This document shows, piece by piece, positions 34,330-56,402 of a stretch of 64,000 nucleotides of DNA. The stretch is from Solobacterium sp. (GTDB lineage: Bacteria > Bacillota_I > Bacilli_A > Erysipelotrichales > Erysipelotrichaceae), in the NCBI GenBank assembly GCA_017430925.1, contig JAFRMA010000088.1, forward strand, positions 1-64,000, written 5' to 3'. Within the stretch, counting starts at the first letter, position 1. Every line of letters starts with the position of its first letter. Position numbers and translations under genes: made by a program. A model generated the notes under the pieces. It was not told where the DNA came from and searched no databases. It worked only from the letters and a program-made list of their open reading frames with translations.

Positions 34330-35460
34330 TTATGAAGACTGTTGATCTTCGAATACTGCTGTGACTTTGGCAAGCAGCTCACGGATAGGCAGATGCTGAG
34401 GACAAACTCTTTCACATTTACCGCAGCGGATACAGTCTGAAGGTTTTCCGTGCTCAGCAATCGCTCTGTTGTAGTAGTGATCAACATTCCAATCTTTTTT
34501 GATCTGAGCACTGTTGTAGCTGGCAAACAGATCCGGAATCAGAATGTTCCTGGGACAGGAACTTTCTTCGATACAATACCGGCAGGCTGTACAGGGAATC
34601 ATATTCCTGGAATTGAAGACATCACGAACTTTACGTACAGCTTCCATTTCCTTATCGTTCAGAGGCACATAGTTTTCCATGAAGGAAACATTGTCTTTCA
34701 TCTGATCCATGTTGCTCATACCGGAAAGAACGACCCGGATGTTCGGGAAACCGGCAGCGAAACGTATCGCATAACTGGCATTGGAACCTCCGTTCAGCTC
34801 ATCAAAGTATTCCTGTGCTTCAGGAGGCAGGTTGACAAGGCTTCCGCCTTTGACTGGCTCCATGACCAGTACCGGTTTATCGTGTTTTTCACACACTTCA
34901 TATACTCTCCGGCTCTCAACAGACGCGCTGTCATAGTCAAGATAGTTGAACTGGATCTGAACGATTTCAATCTCCGGATATTCGGAGAGGATTCTGTCCA
35001 GAACAGCTGCCTTATCATGGAAGGAAATACCGACATGTTTTATTTTTCCTTCCTTTTTCAGCTCAAAGGCTGTTTCATACGCCCGGCATTTTTTGAATTT
35101 CTCAAAAACATCACCGTTCTGTGAATGCATGAGATAGAAATCGAAGTAGTCAACACCGCAGATTTCAAGCTGACTCTCAAACAGGGGACGGATATCTTCC
35201 TGCTTGTTGAAATAACTGCCGGTCAGCTTGTCTGTCAATAAATACTCACTCCGGTCATGACGTGAAGTAAGGCATTCTTTTACTGCTTGTTCGCTCTTGC
35301 CGTTGATATAGCCGTGGGCTGTATCGAAATAGTTGAATCCATGGTCAAGAAAGTAGTCAACCATGTCCTTTACCTGTTCCATATCTACTTCATCTTCTAT
35401 CATCGGTAAACGCATCATACCGAAACCGAAGTTCTTTTTGATCTTTTCGAATTGTTCCAT
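34330..35460 (-). CDS. Aldo/keto reductase with C-terminal 4Fe-4S domain
   Basis: NAD(P)H-linked carbonyl reductase fold at 1-280, with the AKR residues in YFDTAHGY (Asp, Tyr), TDKLTG (Lys) and LMHSQ (His). Residues ~285-365 add a ferredoxin-like region: CTACRYC...SCP and CIRCGKCERVCP, enough cysteines for two clusters, as in the anaerobic AKR subgroup. 376 aa. AAGGAGAG site. Monocistronic. Substrate unknown; electrons may come from or go to the Fe-S clusters. Confidence 0.92.
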   Translation of the reverse strand: MEQFEKIKKNFGFGMMRLPMIEDEVDMEQVKDMVDYFLDHGFNYFDTAHGYINGKSEQAVKECLTSRHDRSEYLLTDKLTGSYFNKQEDIRPLFESQLEICGVDYFDFYLMHSQNGDVFEKFKKCRAYETAFELKKEGKIKHVGISFHDKAAVLDRILSEYPEIEIVQIQFNYLDYDSASVESRRVYEVCEKHDKPVLVMEPVKGGSLVNLPPEAQEYFDELNGGSNASYAIRFAAGFPNIRVVLSGMSNMDQMKDNVSFMENYVPLNDKEMEAVRKVRDVFNSRNMIPCTACRYCIEESSCPRNILIPDLFASYNSAQIKKDWNVDHYYNRAIAEHGKPSDCIRCGKCERVCPQHLPIRELLAKVTAVFEDQQSS

Positions 35461-38797: not shown

Positions 38798-38846
38798 AAC
38801 CTGACAAATTGTGAAGACTATCTTCTATATGAGTCAGGTTATTTTA
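38798..38846 (+). terminator. Terminator after galM
   Basis: AACCTGAC (38798-38805) pairs with GTCAGGTT (38833-38840), long 27-nt loop, then ATTTTAT. It separates gal genes from the hydrolase array. Confidence 0.65.
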
Positions 38847-38870
38847 TATATTGTAAAAAATACCCAAGAC

Positions 38871-38899
38871 TATAATGGAAGTGTTGATAGCGCTTACAT
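38871..38899 (+). promoter_or_regulatory. Promoter -10 and perfect cre site of the hydrolase array
   Basis: TATAAT at 38871-38876 is followed at 38884-38899 by TTGATAGCGCTTACAT, which fits every position of the cre consensus WTGNNARCGNWWWCAW. The cre covers the expected transcript start, where bound CcpA would block transcription. No convincing -35 hexamer is seen, so the promoter may need an activator. Confidence 0.78.
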
Positions 38900-38938: not shown

Positions 38939-39808
38939 ATGGGTATCAGTAAACCAATTGTATTGGAGATTGCGTATAGAACTTACGCGATCAATGAATT
39001 CGGTATGGCTACCGCTTTTATTCTGTGGGGAACCGAAAGAGGACTTCTGATCGACACCGGGTGCGGAATGTACAATATCCGGGAGATTGCGGATGAACTC
39101 TGTCCGGTACCATACGATGTCGTATTAACACACGGACACGGAGATCACAGCGGCTATATGGATGCCTGGGATGAAGTGTGGCTCCACCCGGCAGACTGGG
39201 ATGCGTATCTTCCGGAGAAGATGGCAGCTGCCAAAGAGTTCCACAAGAGCTATCCGAAGATGATGGCCGGCTACGGCAGTTTTGACGCGTATGACATTAC
39301 AGAAGAACAGTTACACTTCCCGGATCATGCGCCGAAGTTCCTGCCTCTTACCGAAGGAACTGTATTTGATCTGGGCGGAGGACGCAAGGTAGATGTCATT
39401 CATACCCCGGGTCATACGGCAGGAGAGGTCGTACTGATTGATCCGAGTGTAAGGATCCTGTTCAGCGGTGATGCCTGCAATCCCAATCTTGGCTTAAGAG
39501 CCACCAGTGTAAATACCGCGCTCAAAGGTCTGTTAAAGGTAAAAGCACGTCAGGCAGACTTTGACCGTAACTTCAACAGTCATATCGGCTACGGCGGAAG
39601 TAATGTGCATATCGCGATGCCGGACAGCTGTCTGGATGACTGCCTCTATATCCTGAGAGGAATCATTGACGGTACTGCGGATGTCAGACATGCGTCTTCC
39701 CCGTTCCGCCCCGGTACTCCTCCGGTATGGTATGTGAAATACGGCAACGTACAGATCACCTTCAACCCGGAAAGAATTATTGATGAAGGAGAGGAACCTG
39801 CGGAATGA
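38939..39808 (+). CDS. MBL-fold metallohydrolase, array copy 1
   Basis: Metallo-beta-lactamase-fold hydrolase, 289 aa, no signal peptide. The dinuclear metal motif is H65-G-H67-G-D69-H70, followed by the later ligands in HTPGHTAGE near 150 and LFSGDACN near 175, and a C-terminal His (NSHIGYGG). The fold covers lactonases, thioesterases, amidases and phosphodiesterases, so the reaction is open. First gene behind the cre promoter; AAAGGAGAG site. Ends with DEGEEPAE, a tail shared by the copies. Confidence 0.85.
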   Translation: MGISKPIVLEIAYRTYAINEFGMATAFILWGTERGLLIDTGCGMYNIREIADELCPVPYDVVLTHGHGDHSGYMDAWDEVWLHPADWDAYLPEKMAAAKEFHKSYPKMMAGYGSFDAYDITEEQLHFPDHAPKFLPLTEGTVFDLGGGRKVDVIHTPGHTAGEVVLIDPSVRILFSGDACNPNLGLRATSVNTALKGLLKVKARQADFDRNFNSHIGYGGSNVHIAMPDSCLDDCLYILRGIIDGTADVRHASSPFRPGTPPVWYVKYGNVQITFNPERIIDEGEEPAE

Positions 39809-39925
39809 GTCTATGCGCAGGAGCACCTGCGTTGTTACATATATAAATTCGGATTATACCGGATATATTCCGGAAAAAACATACAGAGAGATGTTCAAGA
39901 AACTCAAATAGTCAGGAGGTATTGT

Positions 39926-41284
39926 ATGACATTGAGAGTTGGTGCAGGGAAAGCCTGTATCTCCCCTACAGCAGACCTGTTTCCGTTTGCCGGGTTTGCG
40001 GGAAGCGATCCCAAGGTAGAGGTCCACGATGATCTGTATACCAGAGCGATCGTAATCGACAACGGTGAAAAGCTTGCGGCAATCGTCAACTTTGACCTGG
40101 GCATGTTACCGCCTTGGAAAGAGATGGTAGAGATACTGCAGAGTGTCATGCCGATCGAAGAAAAATACATGTTCTTTGCGCCTACACACAGCCATGGTTC
40201 TCCGCACGCAAGACCTTCGGTAAAACCTGCCGGTATGGATAAGCTGATGAACAGAAACGAAGAACAGACCGAGAAGTATACCGCGATCGTGTTCAAGGGG
40301 CTGAAAGAAGCAGTGGAGAAAGCTTATGCGACTCTGCGTCCTGCGAAGTACGGCTTCGGCACCGGTGAGAGCTGGATCAATGTCAACCGTGATAAACAAT
40401 TTGAAGATGGTTACTGGATGCAGGATAACAACTATGCCGGATATGCGGACAAGACCCTGGCTGTAATCAAGTTTGTGGATGAAGAAGAGAAACTGATCGC
40501 CGCCGTACTCAACTATGCCTGCCATGCCGTACTGACCTTTGTCGGTAAGGATGCGGATGGCAAGTGCAAGGTCTCCGGAGACATCCCGGGATATACCGAG
40601 GCATACGTGGAGAGACGTTTCGGGAATGACGCTGTAGTACTTTGGACACCGGCAGCGCAGGGCAATATCAACCCGGTGATCGGTACCGGAGTGTTTACCT
40701 ACCTGGATGATGGGTATGGCGTACGTACGAATCTTCCGGATGGCACAGCATTTATCCTGAGAGCTTCCCTGGGCGGACAGCACGCGATTGACTCCATCAA
40801 GGTCCTCAACAGTATCACGGAATACAGCGATACGATGGATATCCAGGCAGACCGGGAGATCATTCCTCTGCCGGCACAGAAACCTCCGGTAGGCGCGGAT
40901 ATGGGCTATAACCGCCTGCTGGTGGATAATATCATCCCTCTGGGACCGAACGGCGAACATCCGGAGAAGAAATTGGTCATCATGGAAGATGATCCCGATC
41001 ATCCGTTCCAGATGGAACTGAAGATGCTGAAACTCGGAGATATCGCTGTCCTGGGTTCATCCAATGATATCTATTCGGAGATCGGCAGAGACATGAAAGC
41101 TGCTTCTCCGATGAAGAATACGATCGTTGTTGTCCACACCAATCCCGCCATCAACAGTTACATTCCGGATAAGACAGCCAAGGATCATCTGACCTTCCAG
41201 GCTTACGGATTTGTTAAACCCGGTGCCTGTGATGAACTGATCGTGGATGGAATGCTCAGACTGTTTAAGAAGTTTGATTTATAG
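39926..41284 (+). CDS. Neutral-ceramidase-like protein, array copy 1
   Basis: 452 aa, resembles the N-terminal catalytic domain of neutral/alkaline ceramidases, zinc amidases that cut N-acyl-sphingosine. VGAGKACISPTADLFPFAGF is the family N terminus; PTHSHGSPH (His88, His90) and NYACHAV near 200 fit the zinc-ligand positions. Unlike classical ceramidases there is no signal peptide or C-terminal Ig-like domain, so a cytoplasmic substrate is implied. AGGAGG site. The 117-bp gap before it holds two small hairpins (39825-39842; CCGGA/TCCGG). Confidence 0.78.
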   Translation: MTLRVGAGKACISPTADLFPFAGFAGSDPKVEVHDDLYTRAIVIDNGEKLAAIVNFDLGMLPPWKEMVEILQSVMPIEEKYMFFAPTHSHGSPHARPSVKPAGMDKLMNRNEEQTEKYTAIVFKGLKEAVEKAYATLRPAKYGFGTGESWINVNRDKQFEDGYWMQDNNYAGYADKTLAVIKFVDEEEKLIAAVLNYACHAVLTFVGKDADGKCKVSGDIPGYTEAYVERRFGNDAVVLWTPAAQGNINPVIGTGVFTYLDDGYGVRTNLPDGTAFILRASLGGQHAIDSIKVLNSITEYSDTMDIQADREIIPLPAQKPPVGADMGYNRLLVDNIIPLGPNGEHPEKKLVIMEDDPDHPFQMELKMLKLGDIAVLGSSNDIYSEIGRDMKAASPMKNTIVVVHTNPAINSYIPDKTAKDHLTFQAYGFVKPGACDELIVDGMLRLFKKFDL

Positions 41285-41295
41285 AGGAGGTCTTT

Positions 41296-42642
41296 ATGAC
41301 ATTAAAAGCAGGTGCCGCCAAGGCATGTATCTCTCCTACAGCGGAGTGTTTCCCGTTCCCGACCTTCGGTAATGCGGATCCGCGTTCGGCAATGCACGAT
41401 GATATCTATACCAGAGCTGTTGTTATTGATAACGGGAAAACACGAGCTGCCATAGTCAATTTTGATATGGTTGCGATTCCTCTGTTTGAGACAACAAGAA
41501 AACTGATCTCAGAAACCGGTAATATTCCGGAAGAGAATGTATTCATGACCGCAACACATAACCATGATGCGCCTTCGATCCGTACACCTCAGCCGGGTGC
41601 CAAACAGGATGAAGATCTTGCGAGAAGAATGGACATCTATAAGAAGATCGTTCTTGATGGTGTGAAGAGAGTGATTGAAGAGGCTGTGGCAGGGCTGCGT
41701 CCGGCAAAGTATGGTTTTGACACCGGTGAAAGCTGGATCAATGTTAACCGTGACTTCCAGTTTGAAGATGGATACTGGATGCAGGGGCCAAACTTCAAGG
41801 CATATGCGGATAAGACGCTGGCTGTCATGAAGTTTGTGGATGAAGAAGGTAAGCTGATTGCGGCAGTGCTGAACTATGGCTGTCATGCGGTACTTGGCTT
41901 TGTCGCTAAGGATGTGGACGGTAAGATCAAGGTTTCTTCGGACTGGCCGGGTTATGCGCAGAATTATGTGGAGCAGAGATTCGGGGACGGCGCAGTATGT
42001 CTATGGACACCGGCTGCGGAAGGAAATCTGAATCCGGTATACGGAGCCGGGTTGTATACATTCCTTGAGGATGGCTATGCTGTGTCCAAACAGCTTCCTC
42101 CGGGAACAGCGTTTGTGCTGATGGAAGCACTTGGCGGTCAACATGCCATTGATGCAATTAAGGTAATTAACGGTATCACAACGTATTGTGACAATATGGA
42201 AATCAAGAATGCCCGCACGGAGGTAGAACTTCCATCACAGAAACCTCCGGTAGGCGCGGATATGATGCGGAATCGTATGCTGGTAGATAACCTGTTACCT
42301 CTTGGCCCTAACGGGGAACGTCCGGAGAAGAACCTGGTTGTCATGGAAGATGATCCGGAACATCCGTTCAGGATGGAGATCAAGATCCTGCAGTTAGGTG
42401 ATGTCGCATGGGTTGGTGTACCCTGTGAAATCTATTCTGAGATAGGCAGAGACATGAAAGCCGCTTCACCATGCCCGAATACTGTAGTCGTTACACATAC
42501 AAATACGAACTATCACAGTTATATCCCGGATAAGACCGCTGCGGATCATCATACGTTCCAGTCTTACGGTGCCGCGAAACCGGGTGCCTGCGATGAGTAT
42601 ATCGTCAATGGTATGGTCGAACTGTTCAAGGAATTGAAATAA
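41296..42642 (+). CDS. Neutral-ceramidase-like protein, array copy 2
   Basis: 448 aa, 11 bp after copy 1 with GAGGAGG. Zinc motif reads TATHNHDAPS; the second-half motif NYGCHAVLGF is shared with copy 3. It is far closer to copy 3 than to any other copy: long stretches are identical in DNA (for example around 41930-42000 versus 43290-43375), indicating recent tandem duplication. No signal peptide. Same family reservations as for copy 1: amidase chemistry is inferred from fold only. Confidence 0.8.
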   Translation: MTLKAGAAKACISPTAECFPFPTFGNADPRSAMHDDIYTRAVVIDNGKTRAAIVNFDMVAIPLFETTRKLISETGNIPEENVFMTATHNHDAPSIRTPQPGAKQDEDLARRMDIYKKIVLDGVKRVIEEAVAGLRPAKYGFDTGESWINVNRDFQFEDGYWMQGPNFKAYADKTLAVMKFVDEEGKLIAAVLNYGCHAVLGFVAKDVDGKIKVSSDWPGYAQNYVEQRFGDGAVCLWTPAAEGNLNPVYGAGLYTFLEDGYAVSKQLPPGTAFVLMEALGGQHAIDAIKVINGITTYCDNMEIKNARTEVELPSQKPPVGADMMRNRMLVDNLLPLGPNGERPEKNLVVMEDDPEHPFRMEIKILQLGDVAWVGVPCEIYSEIGRDMKAASPCPNTVVVTHTNTNYHSYIPDKTAADHHTFQSYGAAKPGACDEYIVNGMVELFKELK

Positions 42643-42655
42643 GGAGGTAAACAGA

Positions 42656-44007
42656 ATGAGTTTTAAGGTTGGTGCCGCCAAGGTATGTATCTCTCCTACA
42701 GCGGATTGTTTCCCGTTCCCGACCTTCGGTGATGCGGATCCGCGTTCAGCGATGCACGATGATATCTATACCAGAGCGGTAGTCATGGATAACGGGGAAA
42801 CAAGAGCTGCCATAGTGAATTTTGATATGGTTTCAATCCCTGTGTTTGAGACAACGAGAAAACTATCTCAGAAACTGGTAATATTCCGGAAGAGAATGTC
42901 TTCATGACCGCAACACATAATCATGATGCACCGTTTGCAGGAAGCCCCGTACAGGGCGCAGGTGTAAAGCGTGATGATGATCTTGCGGCAAGGATGGAGA
43001 AATTCACGCAGATCGTACTGGACGGCGTGAAGAAGGTAATTGAAGAGGCGACAGCATCTCTGCGTCCGGCAAAGTATGGCTTTGACACCGGGGAAAGCTG
43101 GATCAATGTTAACCGTGATTTCCAGTTTGAAGATGGTTACTGGATGCAGGAACCGAACTTCAAGGCGTATGCGGATAAGACTTTGGCAGTCATGAAATTC
43201 GTGGATGAGAATGACAAGTTGATTGCGGCAGTACTGAACTATGGTTGTCATGCGGTACTTGGTTTTGTCGCCAAGGATGTGGACGGTAAGATCAAGGTTT
43301 CTTCGGACTGGCCGGGTTATGCGCAGAATTACGTAGAGCAGAGATTCGGGGACGGCGCAGTATGTCTGTGGACACCGGCGGCGGAAGGTAACCTGAATCC
43401 GGTATACAGTTCTACGTTGTATACATTCCTTGAGGATGGTTACGCGGTAGGTAAGCCGCTTCCTCCGGGAACAGCGTTTGTCCTGATGGAAGCTCTGGGC
43501 GGTCAGCACGCAATCGATGCGATCGGTGTAATAAACAAGATCACAGAGTACAAGGATGAACTGCCGATCCAGTATGCACGCGGGGAGTTTGAAATGCCTT
43601 CACAGAAACCTCCGGTAGGCGCGGACATGATGCGGAATCGTATGCTGGTGGATAACCTGTTACCTCTTGGCCCTAACGGGGAACGTCCGGTCAAAGATCT
43701 GGTTGTCATGGAAGATGATCCCGAACATCCGTTTGTGATGGAAATCAAGATCCTGAAGCTCGGGGATGTCGCGTGGGTCGGCGTACCGTGCGAGATTTAT
43801 TCCGAGATCGGCAGAGATATGAAAGCTGCTTCACCGTGTCCGAATACTGTAGTCGTTACGCATACAAACACGAACTACAGAAGTTATATCCCGGATAAGA
43901 CCGCCGCGGATCATCATACGTTCCAGTCTTACGGTGCCGCGAAGCCAGGCGCATGTGACGAGTATATCGTGAACGGAATGTTAGAACTATTCAAAGAAAT
44001 CAAGTAA
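42656..44007 (+). pseudogene. Neutral-ceramidase-like protein, array copy 3, frameshifted
   Basis: Two frames make up one copy of the family: 42656-42907 (83 codons, last ~14 out of register) and 42904-44007 (367 codons). Compared with copy 2, one G is missing between 42864 and 42865 (AAACTGATCTC becomes AAACTATCTC). The rest is intact, including THNHDAP and NYGCHAVLGF. The shifted frame ends in TGA overlapping an ATG (ATGA at 42904), so the C-terminal part, which keeps the zinc motif, could be re-initiated. It may be a true pseudogene, a split gene, or a sequencing error. Confidence 0.75.
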
Positions 44008-44037
44008 TGCAAAACACACTGCAGGAGGATGACAAAA

Positions 44038-44121
44038 TGAGTATTATAGCATTTATCAGTAATATTTATTTCATCCGTGACAGTGTGTTAAGAGTGTTTG
44101 AATACAGATTAAATCTGTAAT
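44038..44121 (+). CDS. Possible small ORF, 27 aa, or remnant of a deleted array gene
   Basis: ATG at 44038 has a full AGGAGG site 8 nt upstream and opens 27 codons, product MSIIAFISNIYFIRDSVLRV plus 7 residues. The 5' context resembles that of the ceramidase-like copies (AGGAGG, spacer, ATGAGT), so this may be the start of a deleted copy or a real hydrophobic small peptide. Confidence 0.35.
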
Positions 44122-44142
44122 AATTTTAGCGAATGTATGAGT

Positions 44143-44175
44143 AAGGAAGATAACTACAGTACAGTTGTCTTCCTT
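44143..44175 (+). promoter_or_regulatory. Strong hairpin before the second MBL block
   Basis: AAGGAAGATAACT (44143-44155) pairs with AGTTGTCTTCCTT (44163-44175), one G-U pair, 7-nt loop. There is no T tract after it. It sits 39 nt before the MBL copy 2 start and could be an mRNA processing or stability element within the array transcript. Confidence 0.5.
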
Positions 44176-44214
44176 ATGATATACGCATGGTTATTAATAA
44201 ACAGGAGGGTATGT

Positions 44215-45102
44215 ATGGGAATACGCAAGCCGGAAGTGCTGGAAATCGCGCAGAAGACCTACGCAATCAATGAATTCGGTATGGTTACCTGTTATCTCCT
44301 GATCGGAGAAGAAAGAGGTCTGTTGATCGACTGTGGGACCGGTATGTATAACATCCGGGAGATTGCCGACGAACTGTGTGATTTACCCTATGATGTCGTG
44401 ATCACCCACGCTGACTTTGACCACTATTGTTCCATGGACATGTGGGATGAAGTGTGGCTGCATCCCGCGGACTGGCACATGATGGAACCGGAGTATCAGG
44501 AGCGTGCCCGGGAGATGTTCAAAGATTATCCTGCCATGATGGTCAAACCGGGAACTTTTGACGCCTACGATATTACGCCGGACCAGATGCGCTATCCGGA
44601 GAAGATGCCCAGGTTCCTGCCGCTTGCGGATGGTCAGGTATTTGATCTCGGAGGCAGGAAAGTAGACGTGATCCACACACCCGGGCATTCTGCCGGTGAA
44701 GTTGTTCTGATCGATCCTTCTGTACGTATCCTTTTCAGCGGCGATGCCTGCAACACCAACCTGATCCTGGTCAGGGAACTGGTGGGAAACGGCAGAGGAG
44801 TATCCGTGAATACAGCCTTGAAAGGATTACTGAAGATCAAGGCCAGAGAAAAAGACTTTGACCGTAACTTTAACGGACATATAGGCTATGGCGGCAGCAC
44901 CGTGCACCGGAGCGTGCCGGAAGAAGTTCTGGATGAAGCGATTGAGATCCTGACCAGGATCCTGAAGGGAACCGCGGAAGTAGAGAAGTTCCCGGTATTT
45001 GACGGGATCTACGGTGAGTGGTCTACAGTAAATCTTGGGTATACCAGGATTAGTTTTGATCCGGAAAGATTAATTGATGAAGGGGAAGAACCTGCAGTTT
45101 AG
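44215..45102 (+). CDS. MBL-fold metallohydrolase, array copy 2, altered metal motif
   Basis: 295 aa, beginning MGIRKPEVLE with CAGGAGGG upstream; the longer in-frame ATG at 44137 is excluded by the ribosome site and by alignment with the other copies. The first metal motif reads H65-A-D67-F-D69-H70, so the second His is Asp. Later ligands (HTPGHSAGE, LFSGDACN) remain. It has a 6-residue insertion LVRELVGNGRG-like loop after SGDACNTN. A metal with oxygen preference, or changed activity, is possible. Confidence 0.84.
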   Translation: MGIRKPEVLEIAQKTYAINEFGMVTCYLLIGEERGLLIDCGTGMYNIREIADELCDLPYDVVITHADFDHYCSMDMWDEVWLHPADWHMMEPEYQERAREMFKDYPAMMVKPGTFDAYDITPDQMRYPEKMPRFLPLADGQVFDLGGRKVDVIHTPGHSAGEVVLIDPSVRILFSGDACNTNLILVRELVGNGRGVSVNTALKGLLKIKAREKDFDRNFNGHIGYGGSTVHRSVPEEVLDEAIEILTRILKGTAEVEKFPVFDGIYGEWSTVNLGYTRISFDPERLIDEGEEPAV

Positions 45103-45110
45103 GAGGAATT

Positions 45111-45977
45111 ATGGGAGTCAGTAAACCGGAAGTACTGGAGATTGCGAGAAATACATACGCGATCAATGAGTTTGGCATGGCCACATGCTTTTTGCTGGTG
45201 GGCAGTGAAAGAGGACTGCTGATCGATACAGGGTGCGGTATGTACAATATCCGTGAGATTGCGGATGAATTGTGCAAGGTACCGTATGATGTCGTTCTGA
45301 CACATGCGCATGGAGATCATTTCGGGTCTATGGACAAATGGGACGAAGTATACCTCCATCCGGATGATTTTGACCTGCTGGCACCGGATAAAGATGAACT
45401 GAATCATGCGAAATACGCGATGTATCCGGGAATGATGGCGAAGTTTGGAACTTTTGATGCGTATGATATCGTACCGGAACAGTTACGTTATCCTGAGAAG
45501 ACGCCGCGTTTGCTTCCCTGTGAGGAAGGTTATGTGTTTGATCTTGGAGGGGGACGTAAGGTGGATGTGGTACATACACCCGGACACACACCGGGAGAGA
45601 TCGTACTATTTGATCCGTACACGAGAATTCTGTTCAGCGGTGATGCATGTAACGTGAATCTGGGACTGACTGCCACCAGCGTAAATACTGCTTTGAAGGG
45701 TCTCTTGAAGATCAAGGCACGAGAGAATGAGTTTGACCGTAACTTTAACGGACATATCGGCTACGGCGGAAGTACCGTGCATCGCAGTATGCCGGAGGGT
45801 GTTCTGGACAACTGTCTGTATATCTGCCGGGGCTTGTTAAGTGGAATGCTGACCGGTACCGAAGGTCAGGCAATTGTACCTGGAGAGAAACCACGTTGGT
45901 CAGTCCGGCATGGAAATGTAAGAATCAGTTATTATCCCTGGAGATTGATAGATGATGGAGAGGAGCCTGCAGAATAA
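45111..45977 (+). CDS. MBL-fold metallohydrolase, array copy 3
   Basis: 288 aa, metal motif H65-A-H-G-D-H70 intact, then HTPGHTPGE and LFSGDACN. The stop of the previous gene forms part of the ribosome site (TAGGAGG). A region near 75-110 (LHPDDFDLLAPDKDELNHAKY) varies most between copies and probably shapes substrate choice. Its stop overlaps the start of copy 4 (TAATG), implying coupled translation. Confidence 0.86.
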   Translation: MGVSKPEVLEIARNTYAINEFGMATCFLLVGSERGLLIDTGCGMYNIREIADELCKVPYDVVLTHAHGDHFGSMDKWDEVYLHPDDFDLLAPDKDELNHAKYAMYPGMMAKFGTFDAYDIVPEQLRYPEKTPRLLPCEEGYVFDLGGGRKVDVVHTPGHTPGEIVLFDPYTRILFSGDACNVNLGLTATSVNTALKGLLKIKARENEFDRNFNGHIGYGGSTVHRSMPEGVLDNCLYICRGLLSGMLTGTEGQAIVPGEKPRWSVRHGNVRISYYPWRLIDDGEEPAE

Positions 45978-46843
45978 TGGGAATCAGTAAACCTTTAGTG
46001 CTGGAAGTAGCACGCAACACGTATGCGATCAATGAGTTTGGCATGGCCACATGTTTCCTGCTGGTCGGCAGTAAGAGAGGACTGCTGATCGATACAGGGT
46101 GCGGTATGTACAACCTCCGTGAGATTGCGGATGAATTGTGCAAGGTGCCGTACGATGTCGTACTGACACATGGTCATGGAGATCATATCGGTTCCATGGA
46201 TCGTTGGGATGAAGTGTGGCTGCATGAAGCGGACTGGGACGACTTGTCCATGGATAAGTTTGAAGAGAATCAGGCAAGATTGTTATCTTATCCGGACAGG
46301 ATGGAGCCTTTCGGAAGCTTTGAAGCCTATGACATCAAGAAGAGCCAGGCACGTTATCCGCAGAAGAATCCCAAATTCATACCGTTAAATGAGGGACAGG
46401 TGTTTGATCTCGGAGATGGCTGGAAGCTGGATGTGATCCACACACCCGGACATACGGCAGGAGAGGTCGTACTGATTGATCCGACCACCAGGATCTTATT
46501 CTCCGGGGATGCCTGCAATGTGAATCTCGGACTGGGAGGAGCCAGTGTCAATGCGGCTTTGAAAGGTCTGTTGAAAGTCAAGGCAAGAGAAGCGGATTTT
46601 GACCGTAACTTTAACGGTCATATCGGCTATGGAGGCGGAACGATACACCGCAGTATGCCGGAGAGCGTGCTGGATGACTGCTTACATATCATGCGGGGTG
46701 TATGTGACGGAAGTATCATCGGCGAAGAACGTCCGGGATTCCGTCCGGGAATGCCCCCGAGATTACATGTAAATTACGGACATGTCCATATCGGTTATGA
46801 TCCGGCAAGAATTATCGATGAAGGTGAAGAACCCGCGGAATAG
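45977..46843 (+). CDS. MBL-fold metallohydrolase, array copy 4
   Basis: 288 aa, HGHGDH motif intact. The segment before the third ligand reads LGDGWKLDVIHTPGHTAGE, where other copies have GGGRKVD. The first ~70 residues are nearly the same as copy 3, also in DNA (for example GAGTTTGGCATGGCCACATG in both), pointing to duplication or gene conversion between them. Starts within the TAATG overlap; GAGAGGAG lies ~12 nt upstream. Confidence 0.86.
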   Translation: MGISKPLVLEVARNTYAINEFGMATCFLLVGSKRGLLIDTGCGMYNLREIADELCKVPYDVVLTHGHGDHIGSMDRWDEVWLHEADWDDLSMDKFEENQARLLSYPDRMEPFGSFEAYDIKKSQARYPQKNPKFIPLNEGQVFDLGDGWKLDVIHTPGHTAGEVVLIDPTTRILFSGDACNVNLGLGGASVNAALKGLLKVKAREADFDRNFNGHIGYGGGTIHRSMPESVLDDCLHIMRGVCDGSIIGEERPGFRPGMPPRLHVNYGHVHIGYDPARIIDEGEEPAE

Positions 46844-46852
46844 GAGGAGACT

Positions 46853-47716
46853 ATGGGAATCAAGAAACCAATTGTACTGGAGATCGCTTATCGTACGTTT
46901 GCGATCAACGAATTCGGAGCGGCCACTGCCTTTGTGCTGATGGGCACAGAGAGAGGTCTGGTCATCGATACCGGTACCGGAATGTATAATCTTCGTGAGA
47001 TCGTGGATGAACTGTGTGGTCTTCCATATGATGTGGCAATCACGCACGGACATTGCGATCATATCGCCTGGGCAGACCAGTGGGAAGAAGTCTACCTGCA
47101 TCCGGCAGACAACGATATCTTCTACGATATCAAACGTAATAAGGAGATGACGGCGAATTATCCCGGAATGATGGCGAAACACGGCACATACGATGCGTAT
47201 GATATTCCGATGAGTCAGATTACTTTCCCGGATCATATGCCGAAGACGATACCGATGGAAGATGGCCATGTGTTTGACCTTGGCGGCGGACGTAAGGTGG
47301 ATGTGATCCATACTCCCGGTCACAGTAAGGGAGAAGTGGTGTTTATTGATCCTTATACAAGGATCCTGTTCAGCGGTGATGCCTGCAATCCCAACCTGGG
47401 GATCCGGGCTACCAGCATCAATACTGCCCTCAAGGGTCTGTTAAAGGTAAAAGCACGCCAGGCAGACTTTGACCGGAACTTCAACAGTCATATCGGATAC
47501 GGAGGAAGTACTGTGCATATCGCAATGCCGGACAGCTGCCTGGATGACTGCCTGTATATCATGAGCGGTCTGGTCAAGGGTGAGATCCAGCCGGAGTTTG
47601 CGGAATCTCCGTTCCGTCCGGGATCTGCGCCGATCTACTTTGTCCGTCACGGGGCAGTGCAGATCAGTCTTGATCCGGAGAGAATTATCGATGAAGGGGA
47701 AGAACCTGCAGTATAG
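46853..47716 (+). CDS. MBL-fold metallohydrolase, array copy 5
   Basis: 287 aa, metal motif HGHCDH with a Cys in place of the small residue, followed by HTPGHSKGE and LFSGDACN. Its C-terminal half (KVKARQADFDRNFNSHIGYG, VHIAMPDSCLDDCLYIM) is closest to copy 1 rather than to its direct neighbours. Ribosome site TAGGAGGAG overlaps the previous stop. Confidence 0.86.
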   Translation: MGIKKPIVLEIAYRTFAINEFGAATAFVLMGTERGLVIDTGTGMYNLREIVDELCGLPYDVAITHGHCDHIAWADQWEEVYLHPADNDIFYDIKRNKEMTANYPGMMAKHGTYDAYDIPMSQITFPDHMPKTIPMEDGHVFDLGGGRKVDVIHTPGHSKGEVVFIDPYTRILFSGDACNPNLGIRATSINTALKGLLKVKARQADFDRNFNSHIGYGGSTVHIAMPDSCLDDCLYIMSGLVKGEIQPEFAESPFRPGSAPIYFVRHGAVQISLDPERIIDEGEEPAV

Positions 47717-47725
47717 GAGGAGACG

Positions 47726-48595
47726 ATGGGAATTAAAAAACCTTTAGTGCTTGAAGTGGCACACAGAACCTACGCAATTAACGAATTTGGTATGGCAACA
47801 TGCTTTCTTCTGTGGGGTACAGAGAGAGGGCTTCTGATCGATACGGGATGTGGTATGTACAATATCCGTGAGATTGCGGATGAGTTATGCCCGCTGCCGT
47901 ATGATGTGGTAATTACACATAGTCACGGGGATCATTACGGGTATATGGATGCCTGGGATGAAGTATGGATCCACCCGGATGATATTCCGAATCTCACAGA
48001 TGAAAAACTGGCAGCCTGGAAGAATCGCCCGACGACATATCTGGATATGATGGCAACATTTGGGACAACAGAAGCGTACGAAGTAACCCAGGAACAGTGC
48101 CATCATCCTGAACATGCGCCGAGATTGATTCCCTGCCCGGAAGGCACGGTATTTGACCTTGGCGGCGGACGTAAGGTGGATGTGATCCACACTCCGGGAC
48201 ATAGCGAGGGAGAAATCGTACTGATCGATCCAACCACAAGAATCTTATTCTCCGGAGATGCCTGTAACGGTAACCTCGGTATCCGTTCCACAAGTATGAA
48301 TAAAGCGTTGAAGGGTTTATTGAAAGTAAAGGCAAGAGAGGCAGACTTTGATCGTAACTTCAATTCGCATATCGGTTATGGAGGCGATACAGTACATAAA
48401 TCACAGGTTGACGGTATTCTGGATGACTGTCTGTATATCATGACAGGATTAGTCAAGGGAACAATCAAACCTGAGTATACCCCGAATCCATGGCGCCCGG
48501 GATCCGCGCCGGTCTATCTGGTAAAACACGGGAATGTCGTCATTACCTGTGATCCGGACAATATCATTGGTGAAGGGGAAGAACCTGCAGTATAA
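47726..48595 (+). CDS. MBL-fold metallohydrolase, array copy 6
   Basis: 289 aa, metal motif HSHGDH, then HTPGHSEGE and LFSGDACN. N terminus (LLWGTERGLLIDTGCGMYNIREIADELC) is closest to copy 1. The region 75-115 (IHPDDIPNLTDEKLAAWKNR) is again unlike the other copies. TAGGAGGAG site over the previous stop. Last MBL gene; the ceramidase-like genes resume 53 bp later. Confidence 0.86.
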   Translation: MGIKKPLVLEVAHRTYAINEFGMATCFLLWGTERGLLIDTGCGMYNIREIADELCPLPYDVVITHSHGDHYGYMDAWDEVWIHPDDIPNLTDEKLAAWKNRPTTYLDMMATFGTTEAYEVTQEQCHHPEHAPRLIPCPEGTVFDLGGGRKVDVIHTPGHSEGEIVLIDPTTRILFSGDACNGNLGIRSTSMNKALKGLLKVKAREADFDRNFNSHIGYGGDTVHKSQVDGILDDCLYIMTGLVKGTIKPEYTPNPWRPGSAPVYLVKHGNVVITCDPDNIIGEGEEPAV

Positions 48596-48648
48596 ATAAG
48601 TATTACATGATATAGTAGTATCAAAGCAGTGAAAGGATATAAGATCAT

Positions 48649-50031
48649 ATGGCAAACAGATTACAAGTAGGCGCAGCTAAACTGTGTATTTCGCCGACTC
48701 CGGATATGTTCCCGGTACCGGTCGCAGTTCCCAACGCAATGTATGAAGAAGTGAAGGAAGGACAGGACCTCCACGTCCGCGCAATCGTCGCAGATAACGG
48801 AGAGAAGAGAGTTCTGTTCCTGGCTTTTGAAGCGGGAGGGGTACCCTGGCCGGATGAACTTCTTGGGTATTTAAAAGAGAGTTATGGCTTTGAGGAAGAA
48901 GACGTATTGTTGTCTGCTTCACACTGCCATTCCATGCCGAGAATCGATCATGCGAATAATCGTGATGCATACAGAGATCCGGCATCTCGTACAGATAATA
49001 TGGGCAGATTCGCAACCATGGTCCTGCAGAAGGCTGTGGAAGTTGTCGGCCTGGCACTGAAGACCATGCGTCCTGCCAAGGTTGGCTACGGAGAGGGTAA
49101 GTCCTATCTGAATATCAACCGTGACCAGTTATTCTATGAAGGCTTCTGGATGCAGGGGCAGAACTGGGAAGGACCCAGTGACAAGACTCTGGCCGTTGTG
49201 GAATTTGTGGATGATGACAACAAGGTGATTGCGGCAATCCTGAACTATGCATGTCATTCCGTAACCAACTTTGTACAGAAAGACTATGACGGCAAGTATA
49301 AAGTATCCTGTGATTTCCCGGGAATTGCGTGTGACTGGCTGGAGAGACACTTCGGCAACGGCGCAATCGTCGCATGGCAGTCCGGCGCGGCAGGAAACCA
49401 GAATCCGGTGATGGCGTTCGGCGGCAGAAGATACGATCTGCTGGGCACTAACTATTCCGCGTTGAACGGCGGGACAATCGGAGCTTCCTATATCAACTGC
49501 ATCACCATGGGTGAACAGCACGCCATCGATGCTTTACAGGCAATGGAGAAGATCGATACCTTTATTGAGAACCCGGAAATCAAGACATATCTGGGTGGTG
49601 TGGAATTCCCCGGACAGAAGTTCCCGGAAGGAATTGACCGCGCAAAACATCGCTGGATGGTGGACAATATCGCGTTTGGCCTGGAAGGTTGGACACCGGG
49701 CACACCGCTGAAAAAGGAACTCGCAATCATGGAGCCGAGCGGAAAGGTTATTCCGGGAAGAACACAGTTGTTTGTCATCGGTGACACGGCATTCTATGGA
49801 TTTAACGCGGAGCTGTATAACGAGATCGCCATGTTGTGCAAACAAGAATCTCCGTTAAAGCACACGATTGTGACAACCCACACGCATTATACGATAGGGT
49901 ACATTCTGGATGATGCGTCCAAGGATCACAAAGTATTCCAGTACTTTGGAAACATCCTGCACGGCGGCAGTAACAAGATCGTCCTGGATGGCATGAAGGA
50001 ACTTTTCAGTAGATATTATAACGATAAATAA
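48649..50031 (+). CDS. Neutral-ceramidase-like protein, array copy 4
   Basis: 460 aa, a second subfamily with copy 5. The start is VGAAKLCISPTPDMFPVPV, and the pair shares KEGQDLHVRAI near 43. Zinc motif SASHCHSMPRID; second-half motif NYACHSVTNF near 204; WQSGAAGNQNPVM near 245 replaces WTPAAEGNLNPV of copies 1-3. No signal peptide. Preceded by GAAAGGA. Probably on the array transcript, although the 53-bp gap could hold a promoter. Confidence 0.8.
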   Translation: MANRLQVGAAKLCISPTPDMFPVPVAVPNAMYEEVKEGQDLHVRAIVADNGEKRVLFLAFEAGGVPWPDELLGYLKESYGFEEEDVLLSASHCHSMPRIDHANNRDAYRDPASRTDNMGRFATMVLQKAVEVVGLALKTMRPAKVGYGEGKSYLNINRDQLFYEGFWMQGQNWEGPSDKTLAVVEFVDDDNKVIAAILNYACHSVTNFVQKDYDGKYKVSCDFPGIACDWLERHFGNGAIVAWQSGAAGNQNPVMAFGGRRYDLLGTNYSALNGGTIGASYINCITMGEQHAIDALQAMEKIDTFIENPEIKTYLGGVEFPGQKFPEGIDRAKHRWMVDNIAFGLEGWTPGTPLKKELAIMEPSGKVIPGRTQLFVIGDTAFYGFNAELYNEIAMLCKQESPLKHTIVTTHTHYTIGYILDDASKDHKVFQYFGNILHGGSNKIVLDGMKELFSRYYNDK

Positions 50032-50108
50032 CAAAAAACAGGGTACTCAATGATTGGGCGGCCTGGATAAACAAAAGTAAATGAATATTAGAAGTAAAGG
50101 AGTAACAC

Positions 50109-51485
50109 ATGGCAAAGCAATTATTGGTTGGCGCAGCGAAACTGTGTATCAATCCCGCACCGGAATTATTCCCGTTTGAATTATCTTTCTCCGGTGATCA
50201 ATATACCGGTGTCAAAGAAGGACAAGACATCCATGTACGCGCAATTGCCGTAGATAACGGGGAAAAGAAAGTTCTCTTCCTGGGTTTTGAACTGGGAGGA
50301 GTTCCGGATCCCAAACGTCTGCAGAAACTGCTGAAAGAAAAATACGGTTATGAAAAAGACGAGGTGTTTGCCACGGCTACACATAACCATAGTGCGGTAC
50401 GCGCAATCTCCCAGGATCCGGGACCGGTTCCGATGCCTCAGGATACCAGCGAAAGTGCCAAGGTCTATACCGAGTTCATGTTTGAGCAGATCGATAAAGT
50501 AACCGGACTGGCACAGGCGAATATGCGTCCGGCAAAATTCGGCTACGGCGAAGACAAATCCTACATCAACGTCAACCGTGACCAGCATTTCGATGACGGT
50601 TACTGGATGCAGGGACAGAATTTTGAAGGATGCAGCGACAAGACTGTTGCGGCGGTGAAGTTTGTTGGTGAAGACGGGAATGTGATTGCGGCAATCGTGA
50701 ACTATGCCTGCCACTCCGTAACGAATTTCACTGCCAAAGATGTGGACGGCGGTTGTAAGATTTCCTGCGATTTCCCGGGAATTGCGAGCGGATGGCTGGA
50801 GAACCATTTCGGCAATGACGCGGTAGTCCTCTGGCAGTCCGGTGCTGCAGGCAACCAGAACCCGATCATGGCTTACGCGACACATCGTTATGATGTGAAC
50901 GGTACGGTATATGGAGACAATACCATGAGTATTCCGGGTTCAACGTATAAGACTTGTGTGGTTATCGGTGAACAGCACGCGGTAGACTGCTTAAGAGCTC
51001 TGAAAAAAGCCGATGCGAATAAGTCCTGGGCTTCCATCAAGACATTGGGTTCAGTATTACAGCTCCCCGGTCAGGAGTTCCCGGAAGGAATCAATCGTGC
51101 ACAGCATCGTCTGATGGTTGATAATATCCGTCTGGAGAATCTCGGATGGGCACCAGGTAAGCCGTTGGTAAAACATCTGGCGAATATGATTCCGGTGGAT
51201 GAAACAGTACCTCTGAGAACACAGCTCCTGCTTTTCGGGGATGTGGCATTCTACGGTATGAACTGCGAACTGTATAACGAGATCGGTGTTCTCTGTAAAG
51301 AAGCGTCACCGTACAAACATACGATCGTGGCTACACATACAGATTCTTCCATCGGTTATGTCCTGGATGATGATTCCAAGGGCCGTAAAGTATTCCAGTC
51401 CTTCGGAAGAGTCAGAGAAGGAGAGAGCAACGGTATTATCGTCAAAGGTATGCTGGAACTCTTTGATAAGGCAGTAGAAGAATAA
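50109..51485 (+). CDS. Neutral-ceramidase-like protein, array copy 5
   Basis: 458 aa, partner of copy 4 in the second subfamily. TATHNHSAVRAI is the closest of all copies to the THTHSGP-type zinc motif of true ceramidases; NYACHSVTNF and WQSGAAGNQNPIM follow. Ribosome site AAAGGAG. Last gene of the array, ending before a terminator shared with the converging symporter gene. Confidence 0.8.
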   Translation: MAKQLLVGAAKLCINPAPELFPFELSFSGDQYTGVKEGQDIHVRAIAVDNGEKKVLFLGFELGGVPDPKRLQKLLKEKYGYEKDEVFATATHNHSAVRAISQDPGPVPMPQDTSESAKVYTEFMFEQIDKVTGLAQANMRPAKFGYGEDKSYINVNRDQHFDDGYWMQGQNFEGCSDKTVAAVKFVGEDGNVIAAIVNYACHSVTNFTAKDVDGGCKISCDFPGIASGWLENHFGNDAVVLWQSGAAGNQNPIMAYATHRYDVNGTVYGDNTMSIPGSTYKTCVVIGEQHAVDCLRALKKADANKSWASIKTLGSVLQLPGQEFPEGINRAQHRLMVDNIRLENLGWAPGKPLVKHLANMIPVDETVPLRTQLLLFGDVAFYGMNCELYNEIGVLCKEASPYKHTIVATHTDSSIGYVLDDDSKGRKVFQSFGRVREGESNGIIVKGMLELFDKAVEE

Positions 51486-55668: not shown

Positions 55669-56220
55669 TTACAATTTTCCTTCCAGTTCTTTTCTCAGTT
55701 TTGACAGTCCCCGGTGGTATTTTGAAAGTACCGTAGGAAGCTTCAGTTCCATGATCCCGGCGATATCGGCGAATTTCATTTCCGATACCGCACGCAAGAG
55801 GATGATCTGGTGTTCCTGATCGTTCAGCACTTTGAATGCCGCCGCAAGAGTCAGACGCAGCGAAGGATCGCTGTGAGATTCAAAGATCAGCTGACTGTCC
55901 AGATCTTCGATCGGAACAGGCATCATTTTCTGCTGTTCCCTGAATCTCATCTGACACAGGTTTCTGGCGATCGTGAAGATCCATGCCCGGGCCTTGCCCT
56001 TTCCACGGTATGTGTGAGCGGCTGCCCTGACCTTCAGGAAACAGTCCTGCATCACTTCTTCCGCATCATGTCTGTTTTTTAAGATCGATAATGCATAAGC
56101 GAAGATCGGACGGTACAGCCTTTCATAAAGACAGTTGAAAGCCTCCCTGTCATCCAGGGCGATCTTGTGAAGCAATCCATCTTCGTCGATCATTGACAGA
56201 TCCTCTTTGTTCTCAGACAT
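55669..56220 (-). CDS. ECF-type RNA polymerase sigma factor
   Basis: 183 aa. Region 2 (FNCLYERLYRPIFAYALSILKNRHDAEEVMQDCFLKV) and region 4 (LNDQEHQIILLRAVSEMKFADIAGIMELKLPTVLSKYHRGLSKLRKEL) are both complete. I start it at 56220, where GGGGAGGAG lies 4 nt upstream; a longer frame would add 17 residues. It precedes the RsgI-like gene by 1 bp, so the sigma factor is held by that protein until an envelope signal arrives. Target genes are unknown; the Sel1 gene with the shared 27-bp motif is a candidate. Confidence 0.93.
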   Translation of the reverse strand: MSENKEDLSMIDEDGLLHKIALDDREAFNCLYERLYRPIFAYALSILKNRHDAEEVMQDCFLKVRAAAHTYRGKGKARAWIFTIARNLCQMRFREQQKMMPVPIEDLDSQLIFESHSDPSLRLTLAAAFKVLNDQEHQIILLRAVSEMKFADIAGIMELKLPTVLSKYHRGLSKLRKELEGKL

Positions 56221-56402
56221 GTTCTCCTCCCCTATTCTTGTAATACAAGAATATTCTAAATCATAATTCATCGTTTTCCCTCTGTACGACGACGATGTTC
56301 AGACTTAAGATCTTCGCAAACGTTTTATCTTTCCATCGCCTTCATAAATACGATGCACAAAGGACCATTTTTATTGCACACTTTGAAAAGAAAACAAAAA
56401 AC

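Follow-up and report, generated by a model that had tools for sequence, protein, structure and literature searches.

What does a bacterium gain from eleven consecutive hydrolase genes that belong to only two protein families? The question is raised by a Solobacterium sp. contig (GenBank assembly GCA_017430925.1, contig JAFRMA010000088.1), of which the first 64,000 nucleotides, the window of this study, were analysed; the host genome comprises 2.7 Mb on 115 contigs, and the named members found for the genus are Solobacterium sp. metagenome-assembled genomes (MAGs), one of them from sheep duodenum, and UBA3691. Positions 38939-51485 of the plus strand hold six genes for metallo-β-lactamase (MBL)-fold proteins, here called M, and five for ceramidase-fold proteins, here called C, in the order M-C-C-C*-M-M-M-M-M-C-C, where C* denotes a frameshifted copy. 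A preliminary description of this DNA had reported the same eleven genes in the same order, and every one of them is present. The answer that we favour, with roughly even confidence, is that the array is a catabolite-controlled cytoplasmic set of hydrolases that cut conjugates with ester, lactone or amide links after their import.

The five C genes are C1 (39926-41284), C2 (41296-42642), C3* (42656/42904-44007), C4 (48649-50031) and C5 (50109-51485). Their products match Pfam family PF04734 (Ceramidase_alk) with E-values of 3e-7 to 6e-11 (8e-11 for C1); relative to the curated cut-off of 32.1 bits, C1 and C2 lie above, C3* at, and C4 (29.8 bits) and C5 (31.5 bits) just below, and a profile of the C family reaches neutral ceramidases of known structure at 1e-14. 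The AlphaFold model of C2 (m6203f377e267; 448 residues, mean predicted local distance difference test score (pLDDT) 81) aligns with neutral ceramidases 2zws (Z 34.4 over 368 residues) and 4wgk (Z 32.0); all later rows of the fold search, including N-terminal nucleophile (Ntn) hydrolases and xanthine oxidase, have Z under 8 and were taken as background. Judged from this model, C is the catalytic domain of a neutral ceramidase together with its zinc ligands. In the Pseudomonas enzyme (PaCD) we take these ligands to be His97, His204, Glu411 and Tyr448. The first three columns correspond to H88, H197 and E378 of C2, the Glu411 column falling in a weak second alignment block, and Y409 (C2 numbering), which is invariant across all C proteins, is probably the counterpart of Tyr448, by inference rather than by residue-level superposition. 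In C1 an Asp replaces the Glu ligand, as it does in both orthologues, so that the exchange is fixed in three species.

The preliminary description had also proposed that the proteins are not exported, and inspection of the N-termini by eye agrees: no signal peptide was seen in any C or M protein of the array, and those of C lack a hydrophobic stretch. Nor was a C-terminal immunoglobulin (Ig) domain found in C, the C2 model spanning residues 3-487 of 2zws only. Ceramidase-fold proteins with signal-peptide-like N-termini do occur in Lachnospiraceae (L187-L191), where they form a separate clade and where some reach 780-1159 residues with extra C-terminal parts.

The six M genes are M1 (38939-39808), M2 (44215-45102), M3 (45111-45977), M4 (45977-46843), M5 (46853-47716) and M6 (47726-48595); the start of M2 is placed at the homologous position, its open reading frame (ORF) being listed from 44137. 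Matches to PF00753 (Lactamase_B) have E-values of 2e-13 to 1e-19 (8e-18 for M1), and M6 was recognised by a profile match. Five of the six keep all seven ligand positions (HxHxDH...H...D...H); the alignment and ligand table show that M2 has HxDxDH instead, its second His changed to Asp, and this form too is fixed in three species. The AlphaFold model of M3 (mc309c7411dcf, pLDDT 85) has the MBL fold and lies nearest to SPS-1, PqsE and chlorothalonil dehalogenase, with no clear favourite among them. A scan of M1, M3 and M6 against NCBIfam gave only matches far below the curated cut-offs (gloB, for example, 26 against 200.8 bits), and assignment to a named subfamily (acyl-homoserine lactone (AHL) lactonase, glyoxalase II, B1/B3 β-lactamase) was rejected on these cut-offs. 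Among the six M proteins the catalytic blocks show pairwise identities of 0.83-0.87, against minima of 0.23 for residues 91-105 and 0.28 for residues 241-255, both outside the ligand motifs. The preliminary description had placed the most variable side regions at residues ~75-115, which is close for the first of these stretches and leaves out the second.

Have the copies been kept for a reason? The M paralogues are 62-71% identical to one another, and five of the six have an orthologue of 95-99% identity in L071, the sister locus of a second species (99% for M1, 98% for M6); the exception is M3, the fastest-changing copy, at 77%. The ratio of non-synonymous to synonymous substitution rates (dN/dS) lies between 0.015 and 0.08 in most orthologue pairs (C4 0.015, M2 0.025, M1 0.04, C1 0.05) and at 0.15-0.18 for C2 and M3 (M3 0.18), although C2 was compared with a protein that resembles C3* more closely and is hence not its strict orthologue. 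Nearly all array copies are thus, on these sequence comparisons, under strong purifying selection, and the combination of divergent paralogues with near-identical, slowly changing orthologues indicates that almost all of the copies are individually conserved. The frame of C3*, true orthologue of the third C gene of L071, is broken by a single nucleotide between ~42838 and 42907, a break that the preliminary description had recognised: its intact tail shares 96% identity with the L071 counterpart at a dN/dS of 0.04, and the break is therefore recent or an assembly error. A tree of 62 C proteins divides the window copies between two subclades (C1-C3 and C4-C5), both of which contain or neighbour importer-linked Lachnospiraceae proteins, and the array is therefore not the product of one recent burst; the signal-bearing Lachnospiraceae proteins make up a clade of their own.

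The pairing of the two families is not confined to the window. The genomes compared are mostly drafts, their genes are mechanical longest-ORF calls, and operons throughout are predictions from strand and spacing. High-scoring C proteins are present in 5 of 70 congeneric genomes, with one weak match in a sixth; outside the genus C is nearly absent from the samples taken around the window, with one other carrier among 196 genomes of the family and no other among 392 of the phylum. It occurs in 19 of 397 genomes of the family to which the Lachnospiraceae locus L073 belongs. The five congeneric carriers have 20, 20, 13, 9 and 5 M genes (E<=1e-40). In a sample of 60 congeneric genomes at a looser cut-off, M matches number 24, 23, 14 and 11 in the four C carriers and 0-4 in all others; a match may represent a fragment, and three of these carriers are closely related, hence not independent.

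Further C/M loci lie elsewhere in the Solobacterium genome itself. One contig (C72) carries an operon of one C gene, seven M genes, a Gfo/Idh/MocA-type oxidoreductase and a MATE pump; on another (C110), C, a PHP-domain protein, M and three tandem α/β hydrolases share an operon with an isocitrate/isopropylmalate-type dehydrogenase and a CocE-type hydrolase; a third (C12) has an Opp-type importer together with M. The three α/β-hydrolase genes on C110 (L057:5735-9134) lie 3' of C-PHP-M, and the copy that was scanned has no Pfam match; their relatives stand in tandem, three and two, beside C in two sister species, and one is found near M in L162. At L056:7448-15259 an open-ended 2604-residue BspA-type leucine-rich-repeat surface protein adjoins the importer/M operon.

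What might feed such enzymes is suggested by the Lachnospiraceae, which are only distant kin. Counts refer to 26 distinct C loci (L163, found through its M gene, was left out), and expected values were calculated from how densely the genes in question occur in those genomes, assuming even gene density, with Poisson P values. Nine of these loci have an Opp-type importer, recognised by its oligo_HPY ATPase, no more than 5 kb from C (0.79 expected, P 2e-7), and four have M at 5 kb or less (0.32 expected, P 3e-4). Importer genes share an operon with C in L067, L163, L168, L169, L171, L172, L173, L183 and L184, usually in the order SBP-OppB-OppC-OppD-OppF-C-M (L169, L184), where SBP is the solute-binding protein. 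Two gene fusions join the same EstA-type esterase to either family: in L163 (4740-7280) it is fused to a C domain adjoining M, the C domain appearing by eye to be short of some ligand residues, and in L184 (7274-9361) to an MBL domain adjoining C. The preliminary description had held that separation of the two families in related genomes would speak against a shared pathway; instead they are linked in the genus and again in Lachnospiraceae. Its picture of a module of two families stands as far as this linkage goes, but in relatives the module is wider, taking in the importer, the esterase, often an oxidoreductase and sometimes a MATE pump. A family of small membrane proteins without Pfam match also turns up repeatedly alongside the importer and the C/M genes, in members of two bacterial families (L056:6421-7071, L068:3749-4402, L166:13224-13925, L172:15651-16253 and L173:9577-10182).

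The region ahead of M1 provides a candidate control element. An intrinsic terminator (38798-38848, plus strand; a AACCTGAC...GTCAGGTT hairpin with a T-rich tail) follows galM, and its stem CCTGAC...GTCAGG and T-rich tail are kept in three species; as far as sequence can tell, it separates galK-galM from the array. A -10-like box, TATAAT (38871-38876, plus strand), is identical in L071 and reads TACAAT in L072, the locus of the third species. Just 3' of it lies a putative CcpA-type operator, TTGATAGCGCTTACAT (38884-38899, plus strand), which fits the consensus WTGNNARCGNWWWCAW of the catabolite-responsive element (cre) and is the sole match in the window on both strands, where 0.20 were expected; it occupies the same place in L071, with one end base different, and in L072 as TGTAAACGCTTACA. 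The whole genome has 19 matches to the cre consensus, against five for the reversed control, and by eye on the N-termini other matches precede phosphotransferase system (PTS)- or other transporter-like genes. As the other C/M operons lack the site, repression by CcpA is proposed for this array alone, from a putative operator.

Taken together, a catabolic scheme can be sketched. An Opp/SBP_bac_5-type ATP-binding cassette (ABC) importer, encoded in cis or in trans, would bring conjugates into the cell, that on C12 presumably serving the main array; C and M, with serine esterases encoded elsewhere in the genome, would strip groups off them by cutting ester, lactone or amide bonds, and the released carbon would enter central metabolism. 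In the presence of better sugars the array might be shut by a CcpA-like repressor bound to the cre-like operator, and it may have been amplified and kept for a family of related conjugates, its copies diverging in their loops. We count as firm footing for this scheme the gene content, fold, conserved ligands, purifying selection and C-M linkage, as well as the C-importer linkage in relatives, the esterase fusions to both families and the conserved operator. As to the substrate class, plant acyl conjugates are our likeliest guess, given that the genus lives in the ruminant gut. The preliminary description had anticipated a pathway acting on imported compounds: cytoplasmic proteins and the importer of relatives speak for that part, as do the kept catalytic residues and differing loops for its view of the copies as diverged; the opening or de-acylating chemistry that it added would be an extrapolation.

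Several observations weigh against a catabolic role. Importer, esterase and regulator genes are all missing from the main array itself; the MATE pumps near C and M genes would fit export or detoxification equally well; and no cre-like site was found ahead of the sister C/M operons, so that control may be local. Reading the substrate from the solute-binding proteins was attempted and rejected, as they resemble broad classes only (relatives of agrocinopine/opine-, nickel- and peptide-binding proteins) and name no substrate.

The recurrent pumps make detoxification the chief rival. The hydrolases would then inactivate antimicrobials of plant, fungal or bacterial origin (lactones, amides, β-lactam-like compounds, depsipeptides), MATE would export the products, and many copies would give a broad spectrum; MATE genes indeed share predicted operons with M or C at several loci (L053, L059/L154/L164, L172, L174), and MBL folds are the classic hydrolases of antibiotics and lactones. 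We nevertheless consider this unlikely, since a cre-like operator and importers, which would bring the toxin in, suit nutrition better, no resistance model reached its cut-off, and MATE genes are common in such genomes. Tandem order, the 88% identity of C2 and C3* and the frameshifted copy could alternatively reflect gene dosage or drift, that is, duplicates of one generic hydrolase pair without substrate diversification. The divergence of M paralogues whose orthologues are nearly identical, the separate old subclades of C1-C3 and C4-C5, and the metal-ligand changes fixed in M2 and C1 render that improbable.

The fold and zinc ligands of C invite a further reading, in which C proteins are true ceramidases acting on internalised sphingolipids or N-acyl lipids, M proteins are thioesterases or lactonases of the products, and galK-galM, which adjoin the array in all three species, use the galactose of galactosylceramide. 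But neutral ceramidases known so far are secreted or membrane enzymes of sphingolipids, whereas C lacks both signal peptide and Ig domain and is only ~20% identical to them; moreover, no lipid gene was noticed near any C locus and the terminator between galM and M1 is conserved, which makes this reading very improbable. Least probable of all, in our view, is glycoside metabolism tied to the GPH symporter (TIGR00792) and the Leloir genes galK and galM: symporter and galKM do flank the array in this genome, but the symporter does not adjoin it in L071 or L072, and the array has no glycosidase. A galactose-pathway link through galKM was rejected on the conserved terminator and the separate promoter, and a link to the symporter on its absence beside the array in relatives.

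Two neighbouring loci are recorded here for their own sake. Upstream of galK, an aldo/keto reductase with a 4Fe-4S domain (34330-35460, minus strand) has relatives that adjoin M genes on contig C69 of this genome and in L164. Beyond the array, the segment 54273-56271 (minus strand) encodes a sigma-70-type factor (55669-56271) adjoining an RsgI-like anti-sigma protein, which has a PepSY domain and whose C-terminal tail consists nearly entirely of Asp, His, Arg and Tyr.

Returning to the catabolic interpretation, a broader form of it would see in these loci a widespread, undescribed module of gut Firmicutes, consisting of Opp-type importer, C, M and EstA-type esterase, which in Solobacterium-like bacteria has expanded to ~10 C and 20 M as a 'hydrolase library' for one conjugate class, the ceramidase fold acting on non-lipid substrates; we put this forward tentatively, as a possibility somewhat short of even. 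Both enzyme families and importer-linked catabolic operons are already known. A pathway built from C and M was not found in the open-access literature (subscription papers lay outside the search), which likewise held nothing relevant on gene clusters from gut or rumen that involve PF04734, neutral ceramidase or MBL; the combination of C and M, the scale of amplification and the cytoplasmic ceramidase-fold branch are not described there. If the interpretation is true, the importer-linked cytoplasmic branch paired with MBL enzymes would be a second life of the ceramidase fold in small-molecule catabolism, and if the substrates are plant or host conjugates, C/M genes would mark which bacteria remove them in ruminant and other guts. 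For mapping specificity, the eleven natural variants, together with their matching orthologues from two other species, form a ready set.

How does the system compare with those already known? With neutral/alkaline ceramidases (PF04734; P. aeruginosa 2zws, human 4wgk) C shares, along its entire length, the catalytic-domain fold, and the His97, His204 and Glu411 zinc-ligand columns, with an invariant Tyr that probably corresponds to Tyr448, yet it has ~450 residues against ~650, and its genes stand in tandem and share an operon with MBL enzymes, one copy carrying Asp for Glu411. With the MBL superfamily (PF00753; lactonases, glyoxalase II, the PqsE thioesterase, the SPS-1 lactamase) M shares the fold and, in five of six copies, the ligand set; it departs from it in the HxDxDH of M2, in the divergent loops 91-105 and 241-255 and, for the copies scanned, in scoring below every NCBIfam subfamily cut-off. 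To our knowledge, no importer operon with a C, M and EstA-type esterase set has been described. The arrangement itself is familiar from Opp/Dpp/Nik-type importer operons (SBP_bac_5, BPD_transp_1 and oligo_HPY; agrocinopine uptake, for example): in opine and peptide importer operons the catabolic enzymes lie 3' of the importer genes on the same strand, and so do C and M in the relatives of the Solobacterium array, where the enzymes are C, M and EstA-type esterases.

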